Positions 42,889 through 61,556 of a DNA stretch of 64,000 nucleotides are shown one piece after another. Below the pieces are notes generated by a model that saw only the letters and a program-made list of their open reading frames with translations, was not told the origin of the DNA and ran no database searches. The position numbers and the translations under genes were made by a program. The stretch's first letter is position 1. Every line of letters begins with the position of its first letter. Origin of the DNA: Actinophytocola gossypii (GTDB taxonomy: Bacteria; Actinomycetota; Actinomycetes; Mycobacteriales; Pseudonocardiaceae); assembly GCF_025165815.1 (NCBI RefSeq), contig NZ_JAFFZE010000015.1:372001-436000 (forward strand), written 5' to 3'.

Positions 42889-43197
42889 ATGCGCAAATTC
42901 GTCGTTGCGGGTCTGGCGACATTTCTTGTCGTGGCTGGATCGCCGGCTTCCGCGGACACCGCCGAAGCCCAGGGAGAAGTCACGGTTTTCTCCACGGAAT
43001 TTCAGGAGCTGAGCGTGTACGAGAACCCGAGTGGTTGCCAGGTGCTTCCGCTTGGCGCACACGTGCTCGTCAACCGGACCGACCAGCCGGTGCGCATCCA
43101 CGCCGACCCGTTCTGCGCGACCCCGAGCCTGGTGGTGCCCCCCGCGTACGGCTCGCACGTTCCCCCCGACTCCGGATCCTTCTCGGTCGACGCGTGA
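42889..43197 (+). CDS. Small secreted protein of unknown function
   Basis: The protein has 102 residues; the ATG at 42889 follows GGAGAGGAA. The signal peptide MRKFVVAGLATFLVVAGSPA ends near ASA. The mature part is about 80 residues with two Cys (SGCQVL and PFCATP), possibly one disulfide, and beta-rich sequence. No family is recognised. Its stop overlaps the start of the nucleotide-sugar dehydrogenase gene (GTGA, 43194-43197), so it is part of the cluster transcript. The codon use in its first half is less GC-rich than its neighbours. Confidence 0.65.
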   Translation: MRKFVVAGLATFLVVAGSPASADTAEAQGEVTVFSTEFQELSVYENPSGCQVLPLGAHVLVNRTDQPVRIHADPFCATPSLVVPPAYGSHVPPDSGSFSVDA

Positions 43198-44453
43198 CGA
43201 CCGGCCGCGACCTGGTCGTGGTCGGTCTCGGTTACGCCGGCATGCCGCTCGTGCGGCAGGCGTGCCGGGCCGGCCTGCGCACCGCCGGCGTCGACGTCGA
43301 CCCGCACGTCGTCGCCGAGCTGACCGCCCGCCGCTCGCACGTCTCCGGCATCTCCGCCGCCGACGTCGCGGCCATGGCCGACGCCGGGTTCACCGCGGGC
43401 ACCGACCCGGCCGTCGTCGCCGGCGCGGACACCGTCGTGATCTGCGTGCCCACCGGCCTCGCGCCGGACCGGACCCCGGACCTGGACCCGTTGCGGGCCG
43501 CGACCACGAGCGTCGGGCGGCACCTGCGCCCCGGCGCCCTGGTGGTGGTCGAGTCCACCAGCTTCCCCGGCACCACCGACGACGTGGTGCTGCCGATCCT
43601 GGAACGGCACAGCGGACTCCGCGCCGGCGAGGACTTCTACCTGGCCTTCGCGCCGGAGCGGATCGACCCGGGCAACACCCGGTACGGCCTGGTCGACACG
43701 CCGAAGGTGGTCGGCGGGCACACACCGCTGTGCGCCAAGTACTGCGCCACCTTCTACAGCCGCCTGGTGGACACCGTCGTGGTCGCCAGGGGCACCCGGG
43801 AGGCCGAGCTCGCCAAGCTGCTGGAGAACACCTACCGGTTCGTGAACATCGCCCTGGTCAACGAGTTCGCCCGGTACTGCGACGCGGTCGGCATCGACGT
43901 CTGGGACGTGCTGCACTGCGCGGGAACCAAGCCGTTCGGGTTCGCCCGGTTCGAGCCCGGCCCGGGCGTCGGCGGCCACTGCATCCCGGTCGACCCGCTG
44001 TACCTGACCGGCCGGGCCGTCGAGGAGGGCTTCACGTTCTCCCTCGTCGAGGCCGCGCGCACGGTCAACGACGCGATGCCGGCACACGTCGTGCGCCGGG
44101 CCGCCGCACTGCTCGGCGACCGCGGCCCGGCCGGCGCGTCGGTGCTGCTGCTCGGCGTGACCTACAAGGCCGACGTCCCGGACACCCGGGAGTCGCCCGC
44201 CGTGCCGATCGCGGCCGGCCTGGCCGAACTCGGCGCGCACGTCGCCTACCACGACCCGCACGTACCGAGCCTACGAGCGGACGGTGTCGAGCTGCGCCGC
44301 GAAACCGACCTCCGCGCGGCCGTCGCCCGTGCCGACCTGAGCATTCTCCTGCAGAACCACACCGGTTACGACCCCATTCTGCTGGCCACGGCCCCCCGGC
44401 TCCTCCTGGACACCAGGGGCAGGATTTCCGGATGCCGCGTCCAGTATTTGTGA
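43194..44453 (+). CDS. Nucleotide-sugar 6-dehydrogenase (UDP-glucose/UDP-HexNAc dehydrogenase family)
   Basis: The protein has 419 residues from a GTG overlapping the previous stop. The Rossmann motif VVGLGYAGMPLV begins near residue 8; VVVESTSFPGTTDDVVLPIL and FAPERIDPGNT follow. Lys in ELAKLLENTYRFVNIALVNE and the catalytic Cys263 in GPGVGGHCIPVDPLYL identify the four-electron NAD-dependent oxidation of a 6-hydroxyl to a uronate. The GHCIPVDP form and ERIDPGN suggest the WecC/WbpA branch (UDP-HexNAc) over UDP-glucose. It may feed a Wbp-like route with the Gfo/Idh and DegT enzymes nearby. No glycosyltransferase accompanies it. Confidence 0.88.
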   Translation: MTTGRDLVVVGLGYAGMPLVRQACRAGLRTAGVDVDPHVVAELTARRSHVSGISAADVAAMADAGFTAGTDPAVVAGADTVVICVPTGLAPDRTPDLDPLRAATTSVGRHLRPGALVVVESTSFPGTTDDVVLPILERHSGLRAGEDFYLAFAPERIDPGNTRYGLVDTPKVVGGHTPLCAKYCATFYSRLVDTVVVARGTREAELAKLLENTYRFVNIALVNEFARYCDAVGIDVWDVLHCAGTKPFGFARFEPGPGVGGHCIPVDPLYLTGRAVEEGFTFSLVEAARTVNDAMPAHVVRRAAALLGDRGPAGASVLLLGVTYKADVPDTRESPAVPIAAGLAELGAHVAYHDPHVPSLRADGVELRRETDLRAAVARADLSILLQNHTGYDPILLATAPRLLLDTRGRISGCRVQYL

Positions 44454-44490
44454 AACAAGGGCAAATTCAACGGAAGGGATCCCCGAAGCC

Positions 44491-45024
44491 ATGACCACGT
44501 CGATGGCCAGTGACCGACTCAGGCAGCGTTTCGCCAAATGGGACACCAACGGCAACGGTTCGCTGGAACGTACGGACTTCGAGCAGGAGGCCGAGCGCAT
44601 CTGCGCCGCGTTCGGCGCCCAGCCCCAGTCCAAACAGGCGAAGAACCTTCGGGCCGCCTTCGGCAATCTCTTCGACTTCCACGCCCGCGAGGCCGGGGTG
44701 GGACCGAACGGTTCGGTGAGCGAGGACGACTTCGTCCGCGTCAACGACAAGCTGATGTTCACCGACGGCGAGGCGAGCTTCAACCGCGTGCTCCGCCCGG
44801 TGATGCAGGCGCTGGTCGGGCTGTGCGACCGGAACGCCGACGGCATGATCAACCAGCAGGAGTTCAGCGCCTGGCTCGACGGTGTCGGCGTCGGCGAGAC
44901 GCAGGCCCGCGAGGCCTTCCGGCAGATCGACACCGACAACGACGGCGAGCTGTCCGTCGAGGAACTGCTCGGCGCCGTGCGCGCCTTCCACTACGGCAAG
45001 CTGGACGTGCCGCTGCTCGGCTGA
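44491..45024 (+). CDS. EF-hand calcium-binding protein
   Basis: The protein has 177 residues. Three intact EF-hand loops are visible: Asp18-Asp29 (DTNGNGSLERTD), Asp113-Glu124 (DRNADGMINQQE) and Asp147-Glu158 (DTDNDGELSVEE). The second hand (about 69-80) is degenerate. The layout matches calerythrin-like cytosolic proteins of actinomycetes, which buffer or sense calcium. The gene starts 37 bases after the nucleotide-sugar dehydrogenase on the same strand. Why a calcium sensor would sit at a biosynthetic cluster is unclear. Its 3' end overlaps the opposing gene by 34 bases. Confidence 0.9.
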   Translation: MTTSMASDRLRQRFAKWDTNGNGSLERTDFEQEAERICAAFGAQPQSKQAKNLRAAFGNLFDFHAREAGVGPNGSVSEDDFVRVNDKLMFTDGEASFNRVLRPVMQALVGLCDRNADGMINQQEFSAWLDGVGVGETQAREAFRQIDTDNDGELSVEELLGAVRAFHYGKLDVPLLG

Positions 45025-45476
45025 GCCGGCCGGCGCCCGGGGCGGTTCCGTCGGGAGCCGCCCCGTGCGCCTTTCCAGGTCGCGGCCCGGAACGTCACCG
45101 GCAGCTCCGGGGCCAGCTCCAGGTCCGCGCCCGACACCGGCACCGGGGCCGCGACCAGGATGTTGTAGTGGTTCGGGAAGTGGCACGCGTCGAATCCGTG
45201 CACGGTGCCGACCAGCCGGTCGCCGATCCACAGCTCGTCGCCCCGGTCGATCACGCCGGCGTTGTGCAGCTCGGCGAACCCGAGGAACCCGACCCGGTCG
45301 ATCCGCGTCCCCGGCGCGGTCTCGGCATGGTCGGTGGTGACCAGCTCGTGCACCTCACCCGCCCGCACGCACCGGCTGGCGTGCGGCTCCAGGGTCATCC
45401 CACGCTCGTCCCGCCGGTGCAGCAGCACCTTCACCAGCGCGCCGCGCACCACCCGCTTCTCGCCGTTCTCCCTCAC
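44991..45476 (-). CDS. Small conserved protein, DUF6917-like, last gene of the leftward operon
   Basis: The protein has 161 residues from a GTG at 45476 that overlaps the stop of the Gfo/Idh gene. The core reads VKVLLHRRDERGMTLEPHAS, GEVHELVTTDHAETAPGTRI, DRVGFLGFAELHNAGVIDRG and HFPNHYNILVAAP. I recall this pattern as an uncharacterised family (DUF6917), but could not check. It is soluble and beta-rich; the HFPNHYNI motif may be a binding site. The last 30 residues (GGSRRNRPGRRPAQPSSGTS) are read through the opposing terminator and gene end, so the natural core probably ends near ATWKGA. Confidence 0.6.
   Translation of the reverse strand: MRENGEKRVVRGALVKVLLHRRDERGMTLEPHASRCVRAGEVHELVTTDHAETAPGTRIDRVGFLGFAELHNAGVIDRGDELWIGDRLVGTVHGFDACHFPNHYNILVAAPVPVSGADLELAPELPVTFRAATWKGARGGSRRNRPGRRPAQPSSGTSSLP
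45038..45065 (+). terminator. Terminator of the EF-hand transcript, inside the opposing gene
   Basis: A 12-base stem (45038-45049 with 45054-45065, one G-T wobble) with a GTCG loop lies 14 bases after the EF-hand gene stop. It falls within the C-terminal coding part of the opposing small gene, the same design as at 34477-34502. Confidence 0.75.
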
Positions 45477-46369
45477 GCCGTACCCACCATGCCTTCCGTC
45501 CGATAACAGGACTCGACCAGCGCCAGCGCCGCCAACCCGTCCTCCGCCGCGGACCGCCCGGCCTCGACCAGCCCGGCGAACTCCGCCACCACACCCCGGT
45601 ACTCGTGCCGCAACGACTCCTTGAACCCCGGGTGCCCGGCCAGCAGGTCCGCGTGCCGCCGAGTGCCGTCGGCCAGCTCCACCACCACGTCCTTCACCTC
45701 GCCGGGGTACGACCAGTCCAGCTCCACCCGTGCCGTCGCTCCGTCCCCGGCGCGCAGGTCGACCGTCGCCCGCCGGTCGACCCCCGCCTCGCGGACGACC
45801 GACACGTCGGTGACCTCGACGTCCCCGAGCACCCGGCGGACCAGGTCGAAGGCGTTCGGCCCGTTGTCGGCGACGCACCCGCCGCCGCACCGCCGAGGAT
45901 CCAGGTACCAGGCGTCCACCCCGACGTGCTCCTCGATCCGTTCCAGGTACCGCACCGCCACGTGCGTCGGCCGCGTGTCCACAGCGGACAGCAGCGCGCG
46001 GAAGTTGTCGTTGTAGCGCCGGTGGAACGCGGTGAACAGCGGCACCCCCGCCGCCCGCGCCCGCCGGTCCAGGTCGGTCGCGTCCGCCATCGTCGTGGCC
46101 AACGGCTTCTCCACGCACACCGCCACCCGTTCGGCCAGTGCGTCCGCGCACACCGCGTGGTGCGCGTCGTTCGGCACCGTGACCACCACGGCGTCCAGCC
46201 CGGCCTCGGCGAGCATCCGCCGGTGCTCGGTGAACCGCGCCGCCGGCCCGTCGAGCAGCTCCGCCCGGACGTCGCAGACCGCCGCGAGCGTCAGCCCGGG
46301 GTGGTCGCGCACGGCGTCCAGGTACAGCCGCCCGATCACGCCGAGCCCGACAACGCCGACCCGGGTCAC
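45473..46369 (-). CDS. Gfo/Idh/MocA-family oxidoreductase (first copy)
   Basis: The protein has 298 residues from a GTG at 46369 overlapping the stop of the Ldh2-type gene. The NAD(P)-binding motif is VGVVGLGVIGRLY (4-16) and the catalytic EKP is at 87-89 (VCVEKPLATT). FHRRYNDNFRAL and GGGCVADNGPNAFDLVRRVL carry the later conserved His/Asp region. The family oxidises or reduces sugar and cyclitol hydroxyls (for example inositol 2-dehydrogenase or UDP-GlcNAcA 3-dehydrogenase). In this cluster it could produce the keto group aminated by a DegT enzyme. Confidence 0.85.
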   Translation of the reverse strand: MTRVGVVGLGVIGRLYLDAVRDHPGLTLAAVCDVRAELLDGPAARFTEHRRMLAEAGLDAVVVTVPNDAHHAVCADALAERVAVCVEKPLATTMADATDLDRRARAAGVPLFTAFHRRYNDNFRALLSAVDTRPTHVAVRYLERIEEHVGVDAWYLDPRRCGGGCVADNGPNAFDLVRRVLGDVEVTDVSVVREAGVDRRATVDLRAGDGATARVELDWSYPGEVKDVVVELADGTRRHADLLAGHPGFKESLRHEYRGVVAEFAGLVEAGRSAAEDGLAALALVESCYRTEGMVGTA

Positions 46370-47457
46370 CGGGAGAACCCCGCCGCCACCAGGTCCCGGT
46401 ACACGTCCGGCGCGAGCGGCACCCCCGTCTCCCGGTGCCGCTCGGCGCGCTCGGCCTCCAACCAGCCGGGGTATCGCACCGGCCCCGACCCGGGCGTCGT
46501 CGGGCAGTCCAGCAGCGTCCCGAACAGCGACCACGCGTCGGCGGCGAACCCGCCATCGGGCCGCACGGTTCCCGGCGCGATCGCGAGCACCAGGTAGCCG
46601 ATGTCGTCGTCGGTACCGTGCGGGCGGCCGTCGCCGGTCAGCGCGGCGGGGGAGGGGCCGAGCGCGGCGCCGGGCAGCGCCGCGGCGAGCAGCTCGACCG
46701 CGACCGCGAGCCCGAACCCCTTGTACGCGCCGGTCTCCGGGCTGCCGCCGAGCCACCGCAGGTGCGCCTCGCCCCGGTCGAACGCCGCCGGATCGGTGAC
46801 CGGCTCGCCGTCCTCGCCGGCCAGCCAGCCCTCGGGCACCGGCTCGCCCGCGCGGGCCGCGGCCCGCACCCGGCCGGTCGGCACCACCGTCGTGCTCATG
46901 TCCAGCACGAACGGCCGGCCCGGCAGCGCGGGCGCGGCGACGCTGAGCGGGTTCGTGCCGAGCATGGCGACCGCGCCGCCGGGGGGCCGCGCGATCCGCT
47001 GGTCGCCGCAGTTGCTGGCCACCACGCCGATCATGCCCCGGTCGGCCGCCACCCCCGCGTGGTGCCCGGCGCAGCCGAAGTGCGTGCCGCCACGGACCGA
47101 GACCAGGCCGATCCCGTGCGCGTGCGCCCGGTCCGCCGCCACGTGCACCGCCTCGGTGGCCGCCCACAGGCCCAGCGCCTGCCGCGCGTCGAGCAGCACC
47201 GCGGGCCCGGTGTCGCGGACCGCGAGCGGCTCGGCGGCCGGGTCGCAGCGGCCGGAGTCGAGCAGCGGCAGGTACAGCCGGCACAGATTGGCCAGCCCGT
47301 GTGAGCCGAGCCCGTGCAGGTCGCCGTACAGCAGCGCGTCGGCGGCCGTCGCGGCGCGCTCCGCCGGCACGCCGCGCTCGCGGAACACCTCCGCGGTGAA
47401 CGAACGCAGCTCCTCGTACGGCACGCGGACGCGGGTGTCATGAAGCGTCAGGGACAT
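46366..47457 (-). CDS. Ldh2-type (malate/L-lactate dehydrogenase family) oxidoreductase
   Basis: The protein has 363 residues; the ATG at 47457 follows GGAGGAGGA. Family blocks are LLYGDLHGLGSHGLANLCRL, IGLVSVRGGTHFGCAGHHAG with the conserved His, GMIGVVASNCGDQ, GTNPLSVAAP and YKGFGLAVAVELL. The fold is distinct from classical LDH. Members reduce 2-oxo or cyclic imine acids with NAD(P)H (malate, ureidoglycolate, 2,3-diketogulonate, piperideine-2-carboxylate). It overlaps the M20 gene by 20 bases. Here it could reduce a 2-oxo acid building block; the substrate is not deducible. Confidence 0.85.
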   Translation of the reverse strand: MSLTLHDTRVRVPYEELRSFTAEVFRERGVPAERAATAADALLYGDLHGLGSHGLANLCRLYLPLLDSGRCDPAAEPLAVRDTGPAVLLDARQALGLWAATEAVHVAADRAHAHGIGLVSVRGGTHFGCAGHHAGVAADRGMIGVVASNCGDQRIARPPGGAVAMLGTNPLSVAAPALPGRPFVLDMSTTVVPTGRVRAAARAGEPVPEGWLAGEDGEPVTDPAAFDRGEAHLRWLGGSPETGAYKGFGLAVAVELLAAALPGAALGPSPAALTGDGRPHGTDDDIGYLVLAIAPGTVRPDGGFAADAWSLFGTLLDCPTTPGSGPVRYPGWLEAERAERHRETGVPLAPDVYRDLVAAGFSR

Positions 47458-48715
47458 GGTCCTCCTCCGGCCGGCACCGCGCCGCGAACTCGGTGAGCAC
47501 GCGGGTCACGGTGCCGGCGAACGTGTCCAGTTGGGTCAGTTCGGCGAACTCGCCGCCGGCGTGGGCGTTGTTGTCGGCCAGGCACCCGGGGCCGAGTACG
47601 ACGGTCGCGGCGTCCGGCACGCCGGCCAGCCAGATGGCGTCGCAGGTGAACGCCGGCTCGCCGGCGGGCCACGGGGCGACCCCGGCGTCGTCGAGCAGCG
47701 CGGTGGCCCAGGTGTCCCGGCAGTCCAGGGCGGGCAGCCCGCGCTTGGCCCAGCGCAACGACACGACCCGGGCGGCGTCCTCGGCGGTGCGACGCAGCTC
47801 CCGCGTGCCGGCGAACCGCCGGCGGAACTCGGCCACCCCGGACCACACGGCCTCGGTGACGCGCCGTTCCAGCCGCCGGCCGGCGTCGCGGGTCGGGTAG
47901 GACAGGTTGAACAGCAGCCGCCCCGACCCGTACACCCGGTTGTGCGCGTCCCCGGTGTGCAGCCCGGCGACGCACACCCGGCCGCCCGGCTCGGCGCCGT
48001 CCAGCTCGGCGGCCAGGTGCTGGGCCAGGAACCCGAGCAGCACCGTCGCGTTGTGCCCGGCGTCCGGCCGGTCGTCGATGCTGCCCGTCCCGTCGGCCTC
48101 GACGCACGCGGTCATCGCGGCCGTCGACCTGGTGGCGTAACGCAGCCCGGTCGGCTCGCAGAACACGTTGAGCCGCCCGGTGAACCCGGCCTCGACGAGT
48201 GGCCGCGTGCCGTAGGTGCCCATCGCGCCGCCCTCCTCGCCGGCCACCGCCTGCACCAGCACCCCGACCGAGTCGAGCACCGGCCGGGCGGCCCGCACCC
48301 CGGCGAGCAGGGCGACGGCCGGGCCCTTGGCGTCGATGGCGCCCCGCCCGGTGAACCGGGCACCGTCGAACCCGACCGGCTCCTGTCCGGCGACGGTGTC
48401 CAGGTGCACGTTGAACATCACCGTGGGCAGGCCGGGCGGCCCGAGGCGCAGCACCAGGCTCGGCTGCGCGGCGAGGAACCCCGGCTCGGCGGCCCGCTCC
48501 CGCACGACCAGCGGCACGTCGTCCCGGTCGAGCACCGCCGGATCGGGGGCGGCGTGGAGGACCGTGCGGAACCCGGCCTCGGCCGCCGCGGCCGCGTACA
48601 GCCGCTGGGCGCCGGGAAGGTCGTTGTCCGCGCGCTCGGACTCCAGCGGGTTCTCGGTGGGGATCCGGAGCAGGCGCAGCAGCAGCTCGTGGTCCGCCGT
48701 GGAGAGTGCGGTCAT
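47438..48715 (-). CDS. M20-family metallopeptidase/amidohydrolase
   Basis: The protein has 425 residues from the ATG at 48715, whose ATGA overlaps the TIM-barrel gene stop. Metal-binding residues are in FNVHLDTVAG (His104, Asp106), GRGAIDAKGP (Asp128) and AVAGEEGGAMG (Glu160, Glu161), the pattern of ArgE/DapE/carboxypeptidase G2. These enzymes hydrolyse amides of acylated amino acids. In a biosynthetic operon it may remove an N-acyl protecting group or release an amino acid from a conjugate. The C-terminal half contains an extra Gly/Asp-rich insertion region but is otherwise of usual length. Confidence 0.88.
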   Translation of the reverse strand: MTALSTADHELLLRLLRIPTENPLESERADNDLPGAQRLYAAAAAEAGFRTVLHAAPDPAVLDRDDVPLVVRERAAEPGFLAAQPSLVLRLGPPGLPTVMFNVHLDTVAGQEPVGFDGARFTGRGAIDAKGPAVALLAGVRAARPVLDSVGVLVQAVAGEEGGAMGTYGTRPLVEAGFTGRLNVFCEPTGLRYATRSTAAMTACVEADGTGSIDDRPDAGHNATVLLGFLAQHLAAELDGAEPGGRVCVAGLHTGDAHNRVYGSGRLLFNLSYPTRDAGRRLERRVTEAVWSGVAEFRRRFAGTRELRRTAEDAARVVSLRWAKRGLPALDCRDTWATALLDDAGVAPWPAGEPAFTCDAIWLAGVPDAATVVLGPGCLADNNAHAGGEFAELTQLDTFAGTVTRVLTEFAARCRPEEDHVPDAS

Positions 48716-49563
48716 TCGGTACCGCGGACCAGCTCGGCCAGGCGGCGTCCCGCTGCGACGAACGCCGCCGCGCCGCCCGCGTCCGCCCACCGGCCCTCGT
48801 GCGGACGGGTCGCGAGGTGCGGCTCGATCGACAGCGCGCCGGCGTATCCGTTGGCGCGCAAACGCTTCAGACAGTCCACGACCCCGGCCTGGCCGTCGCC
48901 CGGCAGCGTGTACGCGGTGTCCTCCCCGCCGCCGACGGCGTCCTTGACGTGCACGTGCGCGACGAACGGCACCAGGTCGGCGAGCAGCCCGGCGGCGTCG
49001 TAGCCGTGCGCGATCCCGTTGCCGACGTCGAACAGCAGCCGCAGCGCCGGGCTGCCGACCGCGTCCAGCAGCTCGATCGCCCGCTCGGCGCTGGTGCCCG
49101 CCCAGCCGGCGCAGTTCTCGTGCAGCAGGGTGATCCCGGCACGCTCCGCCACCTCGGTGAGCCGGCGCACCCGGTCGAGCACCGTCGCCCGCCAGTCCCG
49201 TTCGGGCAGCCCGGCGTTCGGGTAGGACATGATCCGCACGTACGAGGTGTCCAGGTCGGCACACAGCTCGGCGAGGGTGGCCAGCTCGGCCAGGTCGCGG
49301 TCGAACGGTTCGGCGACCGACCCGGACCAGGACCCGATCCGCGAGTCCAGGCAGGGCACTCGCAGCCCGGCGCGGGCGACCGCGAGCACCAGCTGGTCGC
49401 GTGCCGACCGGTCCAGGTCAGCGAGCGCCCGCCCGTCGACCGTGCGCAGCTCCACGCCCGGCCAGCCGAGCGCGCCGATCGCGCGGAGCTGCCCGGCCAG
49501 GTCCGGGGCCGCCTCGTCGCCGATCCCGGCCAGCCCGCCGGGCGGCCAGTACTCAGCCGGCAC
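48712..49563 (-). CDS. Sugar phosphate isomerase/epimerase-like TIM barrel
   Basis: The protein has 283 residues from a GTG at 49563 that overlaps the Gfo/Idh gene by 11 bases. The xylose-isomerase-like (AP_endonuc_2) pattern is clear: LRAIGALGWPGVELRTVDGR, TLLHENCAGWAGTSAERAIE with the metal-binding Glu, LRLLFDVGNGIAHGYDAAGL with Asp, VAHVHVKDAVGG with His, and ALSIEPHLATR. Members isomerise or epimerise sugars and inosose (IolE/IolI) or keto acids. Next to two Gfo/Idh enzymes, it fits a sugar or cyclitol interconversion. Confidence 0.85.
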   Translation of the reverse strand: MPAEYWPPGGLAGIGDEAAPDLAGQLRAIGALGWPGVELRTVDGRALADLDRSARDQLVLAVARAGLRVPCLDSRIGSWSGSVAEPFDRDLAELATLAELCADLDTSYVRIMSYPNAGLPERDWRATVLDRVRRLTEVAERAGITLLHENCAGWAGTSAERAIELLDAVGSPALRLLFDVGNGIAHGYDAAGLLADLVPFVAHVHVKDAVGGGEDTAYTLPGDGQAGVVDCLKRLRANGYAGALSIEPHLATRPHEGRWADAGGAAAFVAAGRRLAELVRGTE

Positions 49564-50527
49564 AGGCGTCCTCGTGGTGGTCCGCCACCCGCCGTGCCTC
49601 GGCCAGCAGCCGGACCACGTCGGCGTGCACGGCGAACGAACCGGGTGGCGCCGGTTCCACACCCGCGAAGTACCGGTACGCGGCGAGCAGGAACGCGCCG
49701 AGCGCCTCGTCCTCGAACACCTCGCGGCGGGTGGCGCCCACCCGCAGCTGAGCGTGGTGGTCGTCGGCGGACACCGGGTAGTGGCCGACCGCCACCGCGT
49801 CGCGCAGGCGCAGCGTGATCTTTCTGCGGCGCACCGGCGAGGTCAGGTCGGACCGGATGGTCGTGCGCACCCCGCCGGCGTGCCGCATGGTCAGCCACGC
49901 GCCGGCGAGCGGACCGGTGGCCGCGTCGGTCCAGCCGGCCGCGGTCAGCTCGGCCGGCCCGGCCAGGGTCAGCGCCACGGCCAGCGCGTGCGGAATCTCG
50001 ACGACGAACGCGTCGGTGTGCGACCGGCTGTGCGCCGAGCGAGTGAATCTCGGCTTCTCCTGGTGCACGGTGATCAGCTCGAGCGGCCCGGCGTCGCCGG
50101 AACGCACCAGCGCGTCGAGCCGACGGGTCAGGGTCGCGGCGAGCCAGTGGGTGACGACCACGATGTCCAGCCCGTGCCAGGCACGCAGGTGTTCCACCTC
50201 GGCCAGCGACGCGAGGTCCTCGACGAGCGGCTTCTCCACGACCACTCGCCGGAAGCCGAGGCGGGCCAGCCGGTCGAGCACGTGTACGCGGACGTCCGGC
50301 GGAGTGCAGACGTGCGCGACGGTGTCGGCGGGCGGAAGGAGCACGGCCGCGTGGTCCAGGGAGTCGACGGTGATGCCGTCACCGAGAGTCAACCCGGGCC
50401 GGGGGTCGAACCCAACGATCGGATGAGCGGGAAACAACTCGGGATGCGCGTGGCGCAGCCGGCCGAGCACCGGGACGTGCAAGTCGCCGCCCGATCGGCC
50501 CAGCCCGACGACCAACGTGTGCGGCAT
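49553..50527 (-). CDS. Gfo/Idh/MocA-family oxidoreductase (second copy), first gene of the leftward operon
   Basis: The protein has 324 residues; the ATG at 50527 follows GAAGGA, whereas an ATG two codons earlier overlaps that site. The Rossmann motif LVVGLGRSGGD (5-15) and EKP at 98-100 (VVVEKPLVED) place it in the family. It is only distantly similar to the first copy and shows VVVTHWLAATLTRRLDALVR and EIPHALAVALTLAGPAELTA instead of the usual middle region. It is divergent from the DegT gene at 50779. It begins a six-gene leftward unit (Gfo/Idh, TIM barrel, M20, Ldh2, Gfo/Idh, small protein). Confidence 0.8.
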   Translation of the reverse strand: MPHTLVVGLGRSGGDLHVPVLGRLRHAHPELFPAHPIVGFDPRPGLTLGDGITVDSLDHAAVLLPPADTVAHVCTPPDVRVHVLDRLARLGFRRVVVEKPLVEDLASLAEVEHLRAWHGLDIVVVTHWLAATLTRRLDALVRSGDAGPLELITVHQEKPRFTRSAHSRSHTDAFVVEIPHALAVALTLAGPAELTAAGWTDAATGPLAGAWLTMRHAGGVRTTIRSDLTSPVRRRKITLRLRDAVAVGHYPVSADDHHAQLRVGATRREVFEDEALGAFLLAAYRYFAGVEPAPPGSFAVHADVVRLLAEARRVADHHEDACAG

Positions 50528-50778
50528 CGACATCCTTCGTTCGAGGTGGGGAACACCTGTGTGCCGACAGGACATGACCGACCGTAGCACCGGGACGCAC
50601 CCAACTGGACTGTCCACAGTGGTGCAACTGCGGCCGATCCGTAGCGCTGTGTCGCAACCGCGCGCCGATCGTGTCACGAGGTCCGCGCGACCGGATGATT
50701 CCCGTTCCGTCACCTCCCGCCGGGTCGTGTCGCGCGGTTAGTTTGAGACCGAGTCGATCCGCGACGGACGAGGGGCCG
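50528..50778. promoter_or_regulatory. Divergent control region between the two cluster operons
   Basis: This 251-base gap separates the starts of the leftward and rightward biosynthetic operons and must hold both promoters. A TAGTTT at 50739-50744 could be the -10 box of the rightward operon, but no convincing -35 box is 16-18 bases upstream. The inverted element GTCCACAGTGG lies at about 50630. I find no regulator gene inside the operons. Confidence 0.5.
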
Positions 50779-54738: not shown

Positions 54739-56081
54739 GTACGGACCTGGACGTCGCGGTCGTCGGCGCCGGGATCGCCGGGCTCACCGCCGCGCACGAA
54801 CTCACCAGGGCGGGCCTGGCGGTGCGGGTGTTCGAGGCCCGCGACCGGGTCGGCGGCCGGATGGCCAGCCACCGGCGCGCCGGCTACACCATGGACGAGG
54901 GCGCCGAGCAGCTCCCGGCGTACGGCTACCGTGCCACCTGGGAGCTGGTGCGGCGCACCGGACTCACCGACGACGAGGTGCCCCGCATCGGCGCCCCGCT
55001 CGCCATGTGGCGGGACGGCGCCGCCCACCCTGGCGTGTCCGACCCGCGCGCCCTGCTGACCGGAGCCGGCCTCTCCCCGGCGGCCCGGCTCGACCTGGCC
55101 CGATTCCTGGCCTCGGCCGCCCGGCACCGGCACCGGTTCGACCCGGACCGCCCAGAGCGGACACCGCTGGGCACCGCGACCGTCGCCGAGCTGGCCCGCC
55201 GCTACCACCCGGACCTGCACGACTACCTGTTCCAGCCGGTCGTCGGCAGCTTCTTCGGCTGGCACCCCGAACGTTCCGCCGCGGCGCCGTTCGTGAGCCT
55301 GCTCCTCGCCGTCGGCCCGCCGTCGACCTGGCGCACCTACCGGGACGGCATGGACACCCTCGCCCGCCGCCTCGCCGACGACCTGGACGTCGCCACCGCC
55401 ACCGTTGTGTCCGAAGTGGACACCGCGGGCGACATCGCCGTGCTGACCACCGACCGCGGTCCGGTCACCGCCCGGGTCGCGCTGCTGTGCGTGCCGGCAC
55501 CGGTCGCCGCCCGGCTGCACCGCGACCCCGCCGAGCCGGTGCGCGAGTTCCTCGACGCGTGCACGTTCACCCCCACGCTCAAGGTGTCCTGCCTGCTGAA
55601 CCGCCCGCTGGCGCCACCGTCCCCGCGTCCGCTCTACACGCTGCTCACCCCACGCACCGAGGAACCCGTGCTGGCCGGGATCATCGTCGACCACGTCAAG
55701 CACCCCTGGCGCGCCCCCGCCGGCCGGGGCCTGCTGACCCTGATGACCACGCCCACGGCGATCCCCGCGCTGCTCGACGTGCCCGACCACGAGGCCGCCG
55801 CCACCCTGCTCACCCCGGCCGCCCGGCACGTGCCAGGACTGGACACCGCCGTCACCGCCACCGTCGTGCACCGGTTCCGGCATGGCCTGCCCGAGGCCAC
55901 CCCGGCCGCGCTCCGGCTGCGCGCCGGGTTCGCCGCCCGGCCGCCGGGACCCGTCGACTACGCCGGGGACTGGGAGTACCTGCGGCCGAGCAGCGAGGGC
56001 GCGGTCCGTTCGGCCGCCCGCGCCGCGTCCCGCGCGCTCGCGCACCTGCGCGCCACGACCCGAACCAGGGAGCCGGTGTGA
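54735..56081 (+). CDS. FAD-dependent amine-oxidase/protoporphyrinogen-oxidase-like enzyme
   Basis: The protein has 448 residues from a GTG overlapping the UbiA stop. The N-terminal dinucleotide-binding fold VAVVGAGIAGLTAAHELTRA (7-26), then FEARDRVGGRMASHR and YTMDEGAEQLPA, match the amine oxidase/HemG/phytoene desaturase group. The end (VDYAGDWEYLRPSSEGAVRS) is the second FAD-binding segment. It dehydrogenates C-C or C-N bonds. It sits right after the UbiA gene, so it may act on the prenylated product or the prenyl chain itself. No membrane anchor is seen. Confidence 0.85.
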   Translation: MSTDLDVAVVGAGIAGLTAAHELTRAGLAVRVFEARDRVGGRMASHRRAGYTMDEGAEQLPAYGYRATWELVRRTGLTDDEVPRIGAPLAMWRDGAAHPGVSDPRALLTGAGLSPAARLDLARFLASAARHRHRFDPDRPERTPLGTATVAELARRYHPDLHDYLFQPVVGSFFGWHPERSAAAPFVSLLLAVGPPSTWRTYRDGMDTLARRLADDLDVATATVVSEVDTAGDIAVLTTDRGPVTARVALLCVPAPVAARLHRDPAEPVREFLDACTFTPTLKVSCLLNRPLAPPSPRPLYTLLTPRTEEPVLAGIIVDHVKHPWRAPAGRGLLTLMTTPTAIPALLDVPDHEAAATLLTPAARHVPGLDTAVTATVVHRFRHGLPEATPAALRLRAGFAARPPGPVDYAGDWEYLRPSSEGAVRSAARAASRALAHLRATTRTREPV

Positions 56082-57649
56082 GACTCCACGACATGGGCGT
56101 GCTGTTCGACGAGTGCGCCGACCGCGACCAGGCGACGACGATCCACCTGGACCGGCCGTTCGACATCGCCCCCGAGTCCGGCGTGGACCACGACCTGCCC
56201 GGCCTGGCCCGGCTGGTGTGGACCACCGCCGGCTGGCTGGCCGCGGCCGGCGTCCGGCGCGGCGACCGGGTGGCCATCGTCAAGGACAACCACTGGGACT
56301 ACGACCTGCTCGCCTGCGCCGCCGTGCGGATCGGCGCGGTGCCCGCGAAGCTGTCCGGCCACCTACCGCCGGAGTCGCTCGCCGTGCTGCTGCGCCGGGT
56401 CGGCCCGGCGGTGCTCGTCACCACCGCGGGCGTGCTGACCGCCGGCCGGGACGCCGGCGTCGACCTGACCACGCTCGCCCGCACCACGGTCGACCTGAAC
56501 GGCACCGACCCCAGCGCACTGAGCGTCCCCGACCTCCTCGGCCACGGCACCCCGCCCCCGGTCCGACCCCGCGACGACGACCCCCTGGTGGTCATGCACA
56601 CCTCGGGCACCACCGGCCTGCCCAAGCTCGTGGTGCACTCCACGGCCACCATCATCGGCGCGCTCGCCCAGCTGGAGGCACGCCGGATCCCGGTCATCGG
56701 CGTGCGCGGCACCGACACCCTGGCCAACGCCAGCGCCTACTCCCACGGCCGCACGTTCTGCTGGACCGCGAGCGCCCTGGCCCTGGCCCCCAGCCGGATC
56801 GTCGTCCTGACCCGGGACGACCCCGACCTCGCCGACCCCGTGCTGCGCAACCACCCGCCGACCGTCGTCGAGGCGCTGCCCGCGACCTACGTGCGGCTCC
56901 GCCCGCTGACCACCCGCCTGGACAACGCGTTCCGCGCGGTCCGGCTGTTCATGAGCACCTACGACGCCATCCACCCGCCGGTCGTCCGCGCCTACCTCGA
57001 CGCATCCGCCCGCCGGCGTCCACTGTGGATGCAGGGCTGGGGCCAGAGCGAGACCGGGCCGATCACGTTCCGGTTCCTCGACAGGCGCGTCACCGCCCCA
57101 CGCGACCTCGGCCGACCGATCCCGCTACGCACCCGGCTGCGTGTGGTCGACCCCGCCACCCTGACCCCGGTCGGTCGTGGCGAACCGGGTCTGGTCCAGG
57201 TCCGCACCCCCGCTCGCTGCCTCGGCTACCTCGGCGAGGACGAGCGCTTCGCCGCCAAGTCCGACGGCGGCTGGTGGAACACCGGCGACCTTGCCGTGCG
57301 CGGCCGGACCGGGCGGGTGCGGCTGCTCGACCGCGAGGTCGACCTGGCCCCCGGCATGAGCTGCCTCGCCGCCGAGGACACCATCGAGGACCGGCTCGAC
57401 GCGGTCGTCGAGTGCGTGCTGCTCGGCGTGTCCGGGCGCCCGCCGGTGCCGGTGGTCGTCACCGCCGACGGCACCCTCGACCAGCGCGCCTGGACCAGGG
57501 CCGTCGCGGACCTCCCCCCGCTGGCCGACCCGGTGGTGCGCACCTGGGACCAACTGCCGCGCACCGGAACCGGCAAGGTCCGCCGCCACGACCTGCTCAC
57601 CGCGCTCGCCGCCGACGCCACCCCCGCCGGCTCCGGCCGCTGGACCTGA
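56078..57649 (+). CDS. Adenylate-forming acyl-CoA synthetase-like enzyme (first copy)
   Basis: The protein has 523 residues from a GTG overlapping the previous stop. Core motifs are VVMHTSGTTGLPKLVVHS (P-loop from Met173), MQGWGQSETGP, WWNTGDLAVRGR and the C-terminal catalytic Lys500 in RTGTGKVRRHDLL. It activates a carboxylic acid with ATP and transfers it to CoA or an amine. No carrier protein is present, so free CoA or an amine acceptor is likely. The acid cannot be predicted. It is immediately upstream of the second methyltransferase. Confidence 0.9.
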   Translation: MRLHDMGVLFDECADRDQATTIHLDRPFDIAPESGVDHDLPGLARLVWTTAGWLAAAGVRRGDRVAIVKDNHWDYDLLACAAVRIGAVPAKLSGHLPPESLAVLLRRVGPAVLVTTAGVLTAGRDAGVDLTTLARTTVDLNGTDPSALSVPDLLGHGTPPPVRPRDDDPLVVMHTSGTTGLPKLVVHSTATIIGALAQLEARRIPVIGVRGTDTLANASAYSHGRTFCWTASALALAPSRIVVLTRDDPDLADPVLRNHPPTVVEALPATYVRLRPLTTRLDNAFRAVRLFMSTYDAIHPPVVRAYLDASARRRPLWMQGWGQSETGPITFRFLDRRVTAPRDLGRPIPLRTRLRVVDPATLTPVGRGEPGLVQVRTPARCLGYLGEDERFAAKSDGGWWNTGDLAVRGRTGRVRLLDREVDLAPGMSCLAAEDTIEDRLDAVVECVLLGVSGRPPVPVVVTADGTLDQRAWTRAVADLPPLADPVVRTWDQLPRTGTGKVRRHDLLTALAADATPAGSGRWT

Positions 57650-57661
57650 CCGGGAGAACCG

Positions 57662-58450
57662 TTGACCTCGCTCGCCGGGCACCGCTACGTCTTCGACAAC
57701 GACAGCACGCACAGCGACGAGCAGCACCGCTGCCTCGCCGCCGCCTACGACCCGCCCACCACCGCCGCGCTCGCCGCCACCGGCGTCGGCCCCGGCTGGC
57801 GCTGCCTGGAGGTCGGCGCGGGCGGCGGCAGCGTCGCGCACTGGCTCGCCGACCGGGTCGCGCCGACCGGCGCCGTGCTGGCCACCGACCTCAACCCCCG
57901 GCACGTCCGCGCCGCCCCCGGCCTGACCGTCGCCCGCCACGACGTCACGCGCGACCCCCTGCCCGAGGCCGAGTTCGACCTGATCCACGCCCGGCTCGTG
58001 CTCCTGCACCTGCCCGACCGCCTCGCCGTCCTGGACCGGCTCGTCCGCGCGCTGAAACCGGGCGGTTGGCTGCAACTCGACGAGTTCGACATCTCCTACG
58101 GCCCCGCCCTCGCCGGCCCGGACCTCCCGCTGTACGAACGTTTCCTGACCGCCAAGGCCGAGCTGATGGAAGCCGCCGGCGCACTCGGCACCTGGGGCCG
58201 GTCGGCCGGCGCCGCCATGACCGCGGCCGGGCTCGAGGCGGTCGAGGCAAGCCCGCACGTGTGGACCTGGGACCGGAACTCCCCGGGCCTGCACCTGCTG
58301 GTGCACCACACCCACCACCTGCGCGACAAGTTCCTCGCGTTCGGGTTCACCGACGACGACCTGACCCGCGTGCGCGCCGTCATGGCGGATCCGGCGTTCC
58401 GCGCCTGCTCCTGCGTCTTCTACACCGTGCGGGGCCGGCGTCCGGCATGA
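57662..58450 (+). CDS. SAM-dependent methyltransferase (second copy)
   Basis: The protein has 262 residues. The start is a TTG at 57662 after GGGAGA, 12 bases past the previous stop; it is the only junction in this operon without a GTGA or ATGA overlap. Motif I is CLEVGAGGGSVAHWLA, post-I VLATDLNPRH, motif IV FDLIHARLVLLHLPD. It resembles UbiE/methyltransferase-25 types acting on small molecules. Its late position next to the acid-activating genes suggests O-methylation, but the acceptor is unknown. Confidence 0.87.
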   Translation: MTSLAGHRYVFDNDSTHSDEQHRCLAAAYDPPTTAALAATGVGPGWRCLEVGAGGGSVAHWLADRVAPTGAVLATDLNPRHVRAAPGLTVARHDVTRDPLPEAEFDLIHARLVLLHLPDRLAVLDRLVRALKPGGWLQLDEFDISYGPALAGPDLPLYERFLTAKAELMEAAGALGTWGRSAGAAMTAAGLEAVEASPHVWTWDRNSPGLHLLVHHTHHLRDKFLAFGFTDDDLTRVRAVMADPAFRACSCVFYTVRGRRPA

Positions 58451-60036
58451 CCACCGCACTGCGCACCGTCCATCCGGCCGCCGCTCTCGCCCGCGAGCAC
58501 CTGCGCGGGCTCGGATCCGGCATCGACCTGACCGTCGACTGGGCCGGCCCGGTCGAGTCGCCCCTGGTCGACGAGTACCTGGTGCAGGCGGCCTGCGGGA
58601 TCATGCACGTACACGGCCGGGCGCGCGGAGAGCCCGTGCCGCTCGCCGTCGACTACGCCACCGCGGTGGCCGGCGTGCTCGCCGCACAGGGCGTGCTCGC
58701 CGCGGTGTTCGGCGGAGCGCGGGCGGTCCGCACGTCGGTGGCCCAGGCCGCCCTGCTGTCCGTCGGCCAGTACGTCGTGTCGGAGCAGCCTCCCGAGATC
58801 GACGGCGACCCCCCGCCGTTCGTGTCCGCCGACGGCGTCCGGTTCGAGCTGGAAACCCTCCGAGCCGAGGACTGGCAACGGTTCTGGCGCCACGTGGGCG
58901 CCCCCGAGCCGGCGTTGCGCCGCGGCTGGGACCCGTTCGTCCGGCGGTTCGCCACCGCGGTCTGCCCCCTGCCCGCCGCCCTGCACGACACGCTCTCCCG
59001 GCAACCGTTCGCGGCCGCCGTCGCCGCGGGTCGGGCCGGCGGTGTCAGCGTCGTACCGATGGCGAACGTACCCGCGGGTCCACTGTGGGCACTGCGACCC
59101 CTGCCCGGCTCGTCCGCCCGCTGCGTGTCCCCGGACGTATCGGCGCCGCTGCGTGGACTACGGGTCGTCGAGGCCACCCGACGCGTGCAGGGACCACTCG
59201 CCGGCCACGTGCTTCGGATGCTCGGCGCGGACGTGCTGCGGATCGAACCACCAGGCGGCGACCCGGCCCGGGGGACCGCACGCTTCGCCGCCCTGAACGC
59301 GGGCAAGGCAGTCGTGGAACTCGACCTCGCCACCACCGGCGGCCGAGCGGCGGCCCGCGAGCTGGTCGCGAACGCCGACGTGTTCGTGCACAACTGGGCA
59401 CCCGGCCGCGCGGAGTCGTGGCGCCTGGACGCCACCGACCTCGCCGCCGTGCGCCCCGGCCTGGTGTACGCGGCCGCCTCCGGCTGGGGCTCGGCGATGG
59501 GGGAGGACCCGCCACTGGGTACCGACTACGTGGTTCAGGCGCACAGCGGACTGGCCGCCGCCGTACGGCCACCGGGCGAGCCACCGGCACCGTCCCTGAT
59601 GACCATCACCGACGTACTGGGCGGCCTGGTCTGCGCGCTCGGCGTGCTCACCGGCCTCACCCGCCGAACCGGCACCAGAGTGGACAGCTCGCTCCTGTCC
59701 GCCACCGGCGCGATCTCCGGACGGCGAAGGGACTTCCGTCGTCCACTCAGGACCGCCGACGGGTACGTGGCGATTCCTCGCGCCGCCACCGGACCGGCAC
59801 TCGGCGGCACCACGGCGAGTTGCCGCGAGTCCACGGAAGCAGTCGTCGGCCACTGTGTGGCGTTCTACCACATCGGCGAACACTCGCCATCCGCCGCCGA
59901 GTCGACCGACGACGTCCTGGCCCGCCTCGCCGAAGCCGGTGTGCCGGCCGTCGCCGTGACCACCGATCTCGGCATCCTCGCCACCGATCCGCGCTTCGCC
60001 GCCGCCCACCACCGGCCCCCGTGGGAGTTCTCGTGA
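58447..60036 (+). CDS. Family III (CaiB/BaiF) CoA-transferase-like protein, two-domain
   Basis: The protein has 529 residues from an ATG overlapping the previous stop. The C-terminal half (from about 238) matches family III CoA-transferases: LRGLRVVEATRRVQGPLAGH, VLRIEPPGGDPARG, ALNAGKAVVELDLATTGGRA, DVFVHNWAPGRAESWRLD, YVVQAHSGLAAAV and Asp389 in MTITDVLGG, the position of the catalytic aspartate that forms the CoA anhydride. The N-terminal half is a diverged domain without that site. The enzyme could exchange CoA between acids, or has been recruited as an acyl transferase in this pathway. Confidence 0.85.
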   Translation: MTTALRTVHPAAALAREHLRGLGSGIDLTVDWAGPVESPLVDEYLVQAACGIMHVHGRARGEPVPLAVDYATAVAGVLAAQGVLAAVFGGARAVRTSVAQAALLSVGQYVVSEQPPEIDGDPPPFVSADGVRFELETLRAEDWQRFWRHVGAPEPALRRGWDPFVRRFATAVCPLPAALHDTLSRQPFAAAVAAGRAGGVSVVPMANVPAGPLWALRPLPGSSARCVSPDVSAPLRGLRVVEATRRVQGPLAGHVLRMLGADVLRIEPPGGDPARGTARFAALNAGKAVVELDLATTGGRAAARELVANADVFVHNWAPGRAESWRLDATDLAAVRPGLVYAAASGWGSAMGEDPPLGTDYVVQAHSGLAAAVRPPGEPPAPSLMTITDVLGGLVCALGVLTGLTRRTGTRVDSSLLSATGAISGRRRDFRRPLRTADGYVAIPRAATGPALGGTTASCRESTEAVVGHCVAFYHIGEHSPSAAESTDDVLARLAEAGVPAVAVTTDLGILATDPRFAAAHHRPPWEFS

Positions 60037-61556
60037 CCCGTCCCTGGACCTCCACCGCCGGCGTCGAGATCCCCGACCTCGTCCCCGCCCGGCTGCGTCG
60101 CGAGTGGGCCGCCGCCGGCCGGTACCCCGACAAGGACCTGTACCGCCTGTTCACCGAGCACGCCGACACCCACCCCGACCGCGCCGCCGTCATCGACGAG
60201 ACCGGCACGGTCACCTACGCCGAACTCGACCGCCTCGTCATCGCCGCCGCCGAGACCATGGCGGGCGCGAACCTCGGCCCCCGCGACATCATCGGCATCC
60301 GCGTCCGCAACGGCCGGCTCGGCGCCGTCGCCGAACTCGCCGCCGCCGCGCTCGGTGCCGTCTCCATGCCCTTCCCGCCGGGTCACGGCTCCCGCGACGC
60401 CCGCAGCCTCCTGCGCCGCTCCCGCGCCACCGCCCTCGTCGGCGACCCCGGCGCCCACCCGCGAACCATCACCCTCACCCCCCACCACCCCTCCGGCGCC
60501 CGCCCCCGTCCGACGATCGACCCCGACTCCCCGGCCAGGATCCTGGTCTCCTCCGGCTCCGAGACCGAGCCGAAGATGGTCGCCTACTCGCACAACGCCT
60601 TCGCCGGCGGCCGCGCCGCCTACGTCCGCGCCCTGCACCACGACGACACGCCGATGCGCAACCTCGTGCTGGTACCCCTGTCGTCGTCGTTCGGCTCGTG
60701 CGGTGTGCCCGTGACCGTCGCGGCGCTCGGCGCGACGCTGATCACCCAACCCCGCTTCGACCCCGCCGACGCCCTCCGCCTGATCCACGAACACCGGCCG
60801 ACCCACGTCTTCGGCGTGCCGACCATGCTCGACCGCCTGGCCGCCCGGACCACCGCCCGCCCACCCGGCCTGCGTGCCCTGGTCGCCAGCGGCGCCGCCC
60901 TGCCGCCCGCCACCCGCCGCCGCTGCGCCGCCGCCTTCGGTGTCCCGGTGATCTCCGTCTACGGCTCCACCGACGGCGTCAACTGCCACGACGCCACCAC
61001 CGCCCGCCCCGACCCGGCCGTGGCGACGATCGTCGTCACCGACGCCGACGGCACCCCGCTCCCACCCGGCACTCCTGGGGAGATCCGCGCCCTCGGCCCG
61101 ATGACCCCCCTGTCCTACGTGGCGGACCCCGCCCTGAACACCCGGCACCGCACCCCCGACGGCTGGGTCCGCACCGGCGACCAGGGCATCCTCGACGAGC
61201 GAGGCGTCCTGCACGTCACCGGTCGCCTGCGCCCGACCGTCATCCGCGGCGGCCGGACCATCAGCCCCGCCGAGGTCGAGCTTGTCCTTGCGGACCACCC
61301 GGCCGTCCAGGAGGCCACCTGCGTGGCCGTCCCCGACCTCGAACTGGGGGAGCGGCTGTGTGCCTGCGTGGTGCCCCGTCCCGGCCGGCCGCACCCGACG
61401 CTGACCGATCTGACCACCTACCTCCGCCTCCGTCACGACCTGGAGCCGGCCAAACTCCCCGAACGCCTCCTGGTCCTGGACGCCCTCCCGCTCGGCCCGA
61501 CCGGAAAGGTCTGCCGCACCACCCTCACCGAGCTGGCGACCGAGGCGCCGGTGTGA
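60033..61556 (+). CDS. Adenylate-forming acyl-CoA synthetase-like enzyme (second copy) with atypical P-loop
   Basis: The protein has 507 residues from a GTG overlapping the CoA-transferase stop. The usual SGTTGxPK loop reads SGSETEPKMVAYSH, an unusual Glu-containing form. VYGSTDGVN, GWVRTGDQGIL and the catalytic Lys492 in GPTGKVCRTTL remain. The fold therefore looks intact, but ATP handling may differ. It is the last gene of the rightward operon and converges with the TetR gene, overlapping by 32 bases. It is likely an acid activator working with the CoA-transferase-like enzyme. Confidence 0.88.
   Translation: MTRPWTSTAGVEIPDLVPARLRREWAAAGRYPDKDLYRLFTEHADTHPDRAAVIDETGTVTYAELDRLVIAAAETMAGANLGPRDIIGIRVRNGRLGAVAELAAAALGAVSMPFPPGHGSRDARSLLRRSRATALVGDPGAHPRTITLTPHHPSGARPRPTIDPDSPARILVSSGSETEPKMVAYSHNAFAGGRAAYVRALHHDDTPMRNLVLVPLSSSFGSCGVPVTVAALGATLITQPRFDPADALRLIHEHRPTHVFGVPTMLDRLAARTTARPPGLRALVASGAALPPATRRRCAAAFGVPVISVYGSTDGVNCHDATTARPDPAVATIVVTDADGTPLPPGTPGEIRALGPMTPLSYVADPALNTRHRTPDGWVRTGDQGILDERGVLHVTGRLRPTVIRGGRTISPAEVELVLADHPAVQEATCVAVPDLELGERLCACVVPRPGRPHPTLTDLTTYLRLRHDLEPAKLPERLLVLDALPLGPTGKVCRTTLTELATEAPV

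Follow-up and report, generated by a model that had tools for sequence, protein, structure and literature searches.

Introduction

The ebo operon, which encodes a UbiA enzyme as well as a xylose-isomerase-like protein, has been proposed to yield a product combining isoprenoid and cyclitol (PMC5133447), and BE-40644 of Actinoplanes is an isoprenoid-cyclitol to which a UbiA-family enzyme joins the farnesyl group (PMC5133447; PMC4044012). Xiamenmycin offers a biochemical precedent for the pairing of a UbiA enzyme (XimB) with an adenosine monophosphate (AMP)-ligase amide synthetase (XimA; PMC4053376), and the UbiA-type terpene synthases Tps1A, Fma-TC and EriG are characterized by the motifs NXXX(G/A)XXXD (motif I) and QDXXDXXXD (motif II; PMC9835599). 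Further UbiA-type enzymes, on which our reading does not lean, are described in PMC13307353 and PMC4044012. Here, we analyse a window of 64,000 nucleotides from Actinophytocola gossypii (contig NZ_JAFFZE010000015.1, positions 372,001 to 436,000; genome of 7.38 Mb in 53 contigs), which harbours at positions 42889-61556 a block of genes combining sugar-type enzymes with a UbiA-superfamily membrane enzyme and acid-activating enzymes. In our favoured reading, which we hold tentatively and place slightly short of probable, this conserved actinobacterial cluster makes a two-module isoprenoid-decorated amino sugar or cyclitol hybrid.

The block shares with the ebo operon a UbiA-superfamily enzyme accompanied by a xylose-isomerase-like triosephosphate isomerase (TIM) barrel, a correspondence with EboC and EboE that we draw from their description. 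In contrast, the sugar phosphate cyclase EboD (PF01761), EboA, the CL0034-type hydrolase EboB and the PF01663 hydrolase EboF of the ebo operon have no counterpart inside the block; a sulfatase at 62802, outside the block, passes the PF01663 cut-off. Conversely, the block has a nucleotide-sugar dehydrogenase (UGD), Gfo/Idh oxidoreductases (Gfo), DegT aminotransferases, AMP ligases and a coenzyme A (CoA)-transferase beyond what is described for ebo. BE-40644 resembles the product that we favour in its cyclitol-type unit, its isoprenoid attached via UbiA and its actinobacterial origin, again as judged by description rather than sequence, but its pathway starts with a 2-epi-5-epi-valiolone synthase that is absent from the block. 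Since the block lacks a sugar phosphate cyclase, we do not file it with ebo or BE-40644; if our reading is right, it represents a new variant of isoprenoid-hybrid biosynthesis. The ximA-E genes of xiamenmycin likewise pair UbiA with an adenylate-forming enzyme, but the acceptor there is 4-hydroxybenzoate, provided by a chorismate lyase, and none of the five genes is described as a sugar gene (PMC4053376). A description of the gene set was not found in the open-licence literature, subscription journals lying outside that search.

Gene content and organization

Genes were called by codon usage and assigned to families by profile searches against Pfam and NCBIfam. An earlier note, made from the sequence alone, had named a series of enzyme classes for this block, and all of them are in place, the second Gfo/Idh only just; to these our analysis adds an Ldh_2-type dehydrogenase, an M20 protein, a DUF6917 protein, an EF-hand protein and two S-adenosylmethionine (SAM) methyltransferases. 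UGD and the EF-hand gene lie on the plus strand, followed by a minus-strand run from DUF6917 to Gfo2 and by a divergent plus-strand run from DegT1 to AMP2. In the latter, 7 of the 8 junctions are 4-base overlaps, with starts as called, an arrangement resembling that of a translationally coupled operon.

The sugar-type side begins with UGD (43194-44453, plus strand), a nucleotide-sugar 6-dehydrogenase, perhaps of the type acting on uridine diphosphate (UDP)-N-acetylhexosamine (HexNAc), which scores 391 bits against TIGR03026 (cut-off 190). The minus-strand run comprises the DUF6917 protein (44991-45476; PF21891, 188 bits), Gfo1, a Gfo/Idh/MocA oxidoreductase (45473-46369; PF01408, 74 bits), an Ldh_2-type NAD(P) dehydrogenase (46366-47457; PF02615, 321 bits), an M20 amidohydrolase or deacylase (47438-48715; PF01546, 50 bits) that keeps the HLDT, DAKG and GEEGGA motifs, the TIM barrel protein (TIM; 48712-49563; PF01261, 108 bits), which could be an isomerase, epimerase or dehydratase, and the Gfo/Idh-like Gfo2 (49553-50527; PF01408, 18.5 bits against a cut-off of 24; 84 of 94 loci). 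Two DegT/DnrJ/EryC1/StrS aminotransferases open the plus-strand run: DegT1 (50779-51984; PF01041, 344 bits), with its SFFPxKTLGA motif kept, and DegT2 (51981-53120; PF01041, 319 bits), with SFVQVK kept.

The run continues, still on the plus strand, with an optional SAM methyltransferase, MT1 (53117-53785; PF13649, 65 bits; 18 of 94 loci), the UbiA-superfamily enzyme (53782-54738), a flavin adenine dinucleotide (FAD) oxidoreductase of the amine oxidase/HpnE-like group (54735-56081; PF01593, 141 bits), AMP1, an adenylate-forming enzyme that is the usual partner of UbiA (56078-57649; PF00501, 163 bits; 89 of 94 loci), a second SAM methyltransferase, MT2 (57662-58450; PF08241, 54.5 bits; 88 of 94 loci), a family III CoA-transferase (58447-60036; PF02515) and AMP2, an AMP-dependent acyl/aryl ligase with a C-terminal domain (60033-61556; PF00501, 159 bits; PF13193, 53 bits). 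The halves of the CoA-transferase are swapped: residues 235-420 match positions 1-199 of the PF02515 profile and residues 43-207 match positions 135-313, which suggests a permuted or tandem origin.

Among the scanned cluster genes, Pfam recognized no polyketide synthase, nonribosomal peptide synthetase, carrier, ketosynthase, condensation or ribosomal peptide (RiPP)-type gene and no glycosyltransferase, and both AMP-binding proteins stand alone. The absences listed in the earlier note are thus confirmed, with one restriction: no canonical terpene cyclase occurs among these genes, but UbiA itself could be a non-canonical one.

Conservation across actinobacterial genomes

An alignment of UbiA, searched against named bacterial genomes, matched 253 stretches, of which 176 were confirmed, and the best 80 were studied as loci. 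A gene was scored as present when a called gene had its best window-protein match at E<=1e-8, which counts a few distant paralogues. Counts out of 94 combine these 80 loci with 14 from the genomes bearing G handles and include duplicates (L100 and L038 are on one contig, L111 and L041 are apparently one). Amycolatopsis, Streptomyces, Saccharopolyspora, Lentzea, Saccharothrix, Kitasatospora, Umezawaea and others are among the named carriers, and the nearest UbiA proteins, from four Amycolatopsis records, are 79-83% identical to that of the window. All seven core genes (Gfo2, DegT1, DegT2, UbiA, FAD, AMP1 and MT2) are found in 68 of the best 80 named loci and all sixteen genes other than MT1 in 38 of them. 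In a distinct set, made up of the 68 loci with a length of 20.8 kb or more, DegT2, UbiA, FAD, AMP1 and MT2 are never absent; DegT1 is missing from 1, Gfo2 from 3, M20 from 4, Ldh_2 from 11, TIM and AMP2 from 12 each, the CoA-transferase from 14, the EF-hand gene from 15, Gfo1 from 16, DUF6917 from 17 and UGD from 18. Part of these absences stems from the 10-kb limit on the flanks and part from a fusion of TIM with M20, as seen in L096.

Among 100 relatives (own genome included), 19 have a UbiA match at E<=0.001, and around the best of these hits the block recurs, whole or partial, in equal order and orientation. A DegT2 ortholog (E<=1e-110) is present in 12 of the 100, all 12 of which also carry UbiA at E<=1e-58, a co-occurrence with a Fisher p of 9e-14, uncorrected for kinship. 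Two more relatives have such a UbiA without DegT2, G016 on a 3-kb fragment and G032 in another context. M20 (E<=1e-40) is also present in 12 of the 100, in G015 and G049 as a divergent copy. The cluster is sparse at the scale of the class: with a threshold of E<=1e-30, the UbiA alignment finds matches in 13 of 394 genomes, the source genome included. The block was whole or partial in seven others that we opened (G049, G549, G650, G700, G717, G751 and G812), G625 and G635 showed other contexts, and G796, G833 and G839 were left unopened.

The block is under purifying selection, with ratios of nonsynonymous to synonymous substitution (dN/dS) from 0.11 (DUF6917) to 0.59 (MT1) over 17 genes and four Amycolatopsis comparisons. 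The synteny of the block in dozens of genomes, these ratios and the conserved catalytic motifs together indicate more than a chance assembly. The idea that the genes are unrelated neighbours, or form a catabolic locus, is very improbable in our view. The Ldh_2, M20, Gfo and TIM families also serve sugar and amino acid catabolism, and two loci with TIM relatives (L157 and L158) do look like sugar-catabolic loci, but synteny across many genera, gene fusions and strict co-occurrence already largely refute this explanation. The same observations lend good support to the compact biosynthetic cluster suggested in the earlier note, now with conservation over several genera, and the homologues did not prove to be always scattered, an outcome that would have spoken against it.

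On contig C1 of G056, and likewise of G027, matches to DegT2, M20 and UbiA occur together at two separate sites, so that each of these genomes has the cluster, or its core, in duplicate. The 3-kb contig of G016 (C338; L100/L038) carries the cluster UbiA and FAD genes in a genome labelled Candidatus Melainabacteria, which the genome table nevertheless places in the window's own family; G016 is probably a mislabelled or mixed assembly.

Two separable modules

The sugar-type enzymes also stand without the UbiA side. G015 contains a UGD-Gfo2-DegT1-DegT2-TIM-M20-Ldh_2-Gfo1 stretch (32-48% identity, some genes called short), among whose called genes UbiA, FAD, AMP ligase and CoA-transferase found no match, and a search of that genome with the window UbiA was also without match. 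In G918, G960 and G049, a TIM-M20-Gfo1 trio lies apart, and in G049 most of the remaining cluster genes are on another contig. These arrangements indicate that the sugar enzymes form a module. The sugar module of G015 (L196, G015:C48) is followed by genes that, by their protein starts, look like MocR-type and large SARP-type regulators.

Conversely, the UbiA-AMP1 pair recurs without the sugar module in L051, L052, L173 and L176. In L173 (G625:C1:3328300-3348200), a UbiA relative and an AMP1-like ligase are accompanied by IspG, DXS, IspH and a prenyl synthetase, and we read this locus as a putative isoprenoid cluster. L176 has a P450 and an MMPL gene besides matches (33-39%) of methyltransferase, AMP2-like and CoA-transferase-like kind. 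In L051 (G014), the neighbourhood of the pair encodes a small carrier protein, proteins of PEP-utiliser/PPDK-like type and a flavin oxygenase, and an MMPL gene is also present; L052 (G032), of which two proteins were family-scanned, has the same layout. Variant clusters in L046, L047 and on plasmid NZ_CP107870.1 (the latter by annotation) retain UGD, UbiA, a methyltransferase and two DegT genes. An AMP1-type ligase occurs in L046 and on the plasmid, and L046 further has a prenyl synthetase and L047 an IspH. Isoprenoid-supply genes in such divergent clusters are the strongest indication we have of an isoprenoid entering the product. The prenylated and acylated aminosugar or aminocyclitol proposed in the earlier note fits these separable modules and supply genes, although UbiA may instead cyclise a terpene and the ring may be either a sugar or a cyclitol.

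The UbiA enzyme: prenyl transfer or cyclisation

The window protein belongs to the UbiA superfamily, as it scores 75.7 bits against PF01040 (cut-off 34.2) and its model, built from a 46-row alignment with a pLDDT of 92.8, adopts a multi-helix membrane fold. It is one of seven UbiA-family genes in the source genome. The model ranks best against DGGGP synthase (7bpu, E 1.7e-6), followed by AfUbiA, ApUbiA and UBIAD1, its matched structures including 4tq3 and 4od4, and it resembles prenyltransferases most closely, which speaks for the reading that we favour. A PDB search by sequence returned a single match at E 0.73, taken as chance. The phosphoribosyltransferase 8j8j appears lower among the model's matches (E 8.8e-4). 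This match is one argument for reading the block as a sugar locus of the cell envelope, whose UbiA would, like DPPR synthase, have polyprenyl phosphate as its substrate; another is that UGD, DegT and Gfo enzymes are typical of polysaccharide loci. We nevertheless consider this explanation improbable, since the block contains no glycosyltransferase, flippase or polymerase, its distribution is patchy (12 of 100 relatives, 13 of 394 class genomes), and DGGGP synthase, AfUbiA and UBIAD1 outrank 8j8j, albeit by a modest margin.

In the tree of UbiA proteins, 12 of 26 forks stayed open and the paralogues from the source genome sat on long branches, so that we relied on the motif columns only. In all 24 rows shown for the clade, motif I reads DDxxGxxDG(S/T/C)D, with Gly in place of the motif-I Asp. 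Motif II reads SNxxDxxxD, or GNxxDxxxD in L051, L052 and L176; the stretch in the window protein is SNTNDIEGD. A paralogue from the same genome, L180, has NDYSDGVRGTD and NNLRDVPTD and is presumably a MenA-like UbiA. The window protein thus departs from the classical prenyltransferase motif I NDxxDxxxD but has the classical motif II DxxxD, its D217 and D221 being invariant in the 46-row alignment. Compared with motif I of the UbiA-type terpene synthases, it shares their fold and a Gly at position 5, where they have Gly or Ala, but has Asp at position 1, Gly at position 9 and Asp at positions 8 and 11, and its motif II is NxxDxxxD instead of the QDXXDXXXD of Tps1A, Fma-TC and EriG (PMC9835599).

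The enzyme could be a non-canonical terpene synthase that cyclises farnesyl or geranylgeranyl diphosphate, the product being oxidised to an acid by FAD, activated by AMP1, AMP2 and the CoA-transferase and coupled to the amino sugar of the other module. We regard this as unlikely. The Gly where L180 has Asp recalls the fungal motif I (PMC9835599), a bacterial UbiA-type synthase, StlTC, has been reported (PMC10301674), and oxygenases and prenyl synthases occur near relatives: the P450 of L176 has pentalenene oxygenase and albaflavenone synthase as its best models, L052 encodes a PtlE-like oxygenase, and L046 and L173 each have a farnesyl/geranyl-type synthase. However, the NCBIfam matches of the P450, the PtlE-like protein and both prenyl synthases are all below cut-off, and the relative in L049 lies in an isonitrile-type cluster, where an acceptor would likely be available. 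As the Asp to Gly change recalls motif I of the fungal terpene synthases while motif II does not, we favour prenyl transfer over cyclisation as the putative activity of the window enzyme.

L049 (G000:C28:615000-634900) carries a second UbiA of the DDxxG clade together with a P450, a DJ-1/PfpI protein, a PvcA/DIT1-like protein and a TauD dioxygenase, apparently an isonitrile cluster. L050 (G002) has a similar layout, Pfam having been run on L049 only.

The sugar-type enzymes

The best solved relative of UGD in the PDB sequence search is Cap5O (205 bits), with UDP-HexNAc-type dehydrogenases, so assigned by their names, also near; the GGHCxPxDP motif is conserved. Of the sugar enzymes, UGD alone passes one of the NCBIfam cut-offs shown, that of the broad TIGR03026 subfamily. 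The best solved relatives of DegT1 are 2oga, 7b0d and WbpE, and those of DegT2 are 2oga, WbpE and QdtB; WbpE and 2oga are C3 aminotransferases. As 7b0d, named glutamine--scyllo-inositol transaminase, is about equally close to DegT1, a cyclitol substrate is possible for the latter. Both PLP-lysines, the UGD cysteine, the M20 metal motifs and the Gfo EKP motif are kept across the relatives, the EKP in both Gfo1 and Gfo2.

The combination of UGD, Gfo and DegT resembles the chemistry of WbpA, WbpB and WbpE, a UDP-diaminouronate pathway that leads to UDP-GlcNAc3NA and likewise brings together a nucleotide-sugar dehydrogenase, a Gfo/Idh and a DegT enzyme. The WbpD-like acetyltransferase and the glycosyltransferase of that pathway are both missing among the scanned window genes, whereas TIM, M20, Ldh_2, a second Gfo and a second DegT are additional in the block.

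Four genomes encode DUF6917 and Gfo1 as a single fused protein (L196, L210, L211 and L156). They are the same four in which sugar genes stand apart (G015, G918, G960 and G049), and the fusions make DUF6917 a likely working partner of Gfo1. The DUF6917 model is all-beta (pLDDT 89) and matches no PDB structure at E<=0.001. We dropped DUF6917 as a pointer to another pathway: of 396 genomes sampled across the phylum, just one, the source genome itself, was found to have the family, and its context comes from the fusion only. TIM relatives in L157 and L158 (31-35% identity) were also set aside, these apparent sugar-catabolic loci being judged by protein starts only.

Gfo1 and TIM weakly match IolG and IolE, respectively, and this leads to a further explanation, an aromatic meroterpenoid, in which the sugar module would turn a sugar or inositol into an aminated aromatic ring by means of an IolE-like TIM dehydratase, with prenylation by UbiA and methylation by MT1 and MT2, as in quinones or BE-40644. 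The motif residues of UbiA have a spacing like that of MenA. For BE-40644, a UbiA-family enzyme is reported to attach farnesyl to a cyclitol (PMC5133447). Nevertheless, we find this quite unlikely: the matches to IolG (74 of 355 bits) and IolE (36 of 290 bits) are far below the NCBIfam cut-offs, a sugar phosphate cyclase was not found in the block, and UGD would have no clear place in the route.

A proposed pathway

Returning to the isoprenoid-decorated hybrid, we infer every substrate, the sequence of the reactions and the type of product. In the simplest scheme, the sugar module would build an amino-bearing ring: UGD would oxidise C6 of a nucleoside diphosphate hexose, probably a HexNAc, Gfo1 (with DUF6917) and Gfo2 would turn ring carbinols into ketones, DegT1 and DegT2 would aminate these, M20 would strip the N-acyl group, and TIM and Ldh_2 would isomerise or dehydrate, and reduce. 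In the second module, UbiA would attach an isoprenoid from a prenyl diphosphate, FAD would oxidise and MT1 and MT2 would methylate, while AMP1, AMP2 and the CoA-transferase would activate a carboxylate and couple it, through an amide or ester bond, to an amine or hydroxyl.

Several observations weigh against this scheme. In motif I of UbiA, the Asp that usually stands at the centre is missing, and most characterized UbiA prenyltransferases use aromatic acceptors, for which no gene is visible in the block. TIM, Gfo, DegT, Ldh_2 and M20 all fall under every NCBIfam cut-off shown, and Gfo2, weak in Pfam and without NCBIfam match, is assigned by synteny and its EKP motif. No enzyme of nucleotide release or sugar transfer was recognized in the block, the scheme has no place for the EF-hand protein or for a small secreted-looking protein, and the latter is not upstream of UGD in 9 of the 14 loci testable there. 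Moreover, G918 and G960 were inspected for cluster genes at the trio stretch only.

It is possible, though we would stop short of calling it probable, that the cluster stands for a widespread and undescribed class, in which an isoprenoid, or a terpene cyclised by UbiA, is linked with an aminocyclitol or a diamino sugar acid. Its synthesis would rely on a DDxxG UbiA and on new chemistry at a Gfo/Idh-DUF6917 pair; Streptomyces, Amycolatopsis, Saccharopolyspora, Lentzea and further genera would encode it, and it would have been overlooked for want of an assembly-line core. If so, many well-known producer genera would have an orphan pathway in common, accessible in strains from culture collections, and for its class of product we found no described member. 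DUF6917 would gain its first functional lead, as a Gfo/Idh partner, and a UbiA clade would be defined whose chemistry is either prenyl transfer or cyclisation.

Small and accessory proteins

Position 42889 is the ATG of a small protein of 102 amino acids with a signal-peptide-like start (42889-43197, plus strand) that has no Pfam match at E<=1. It was recognized as a gene because relatives occur in 14 of 110 loci (tblastn), and it lies upstream of UGD in 5 of the 14 testable there. Its conserved GC..LP..H...N.T motif is a pattern found in 10 of 94 related loci. The EF-hand calcium-binding protein (44491-45024, plus strand; PF13405/PF00036) contains three EF-like loops and is present in 64 of 94 loci. 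Three Streptomyces clusters (L069:5735-7488, L128:6433-8040 and L130:7837-9440) have two copies of the EF-hand gene flanking a gene for a small protein of 134-144 amino acids, which in L069 shows a weak, below cut-off match to DUF4345 (E 0.044).

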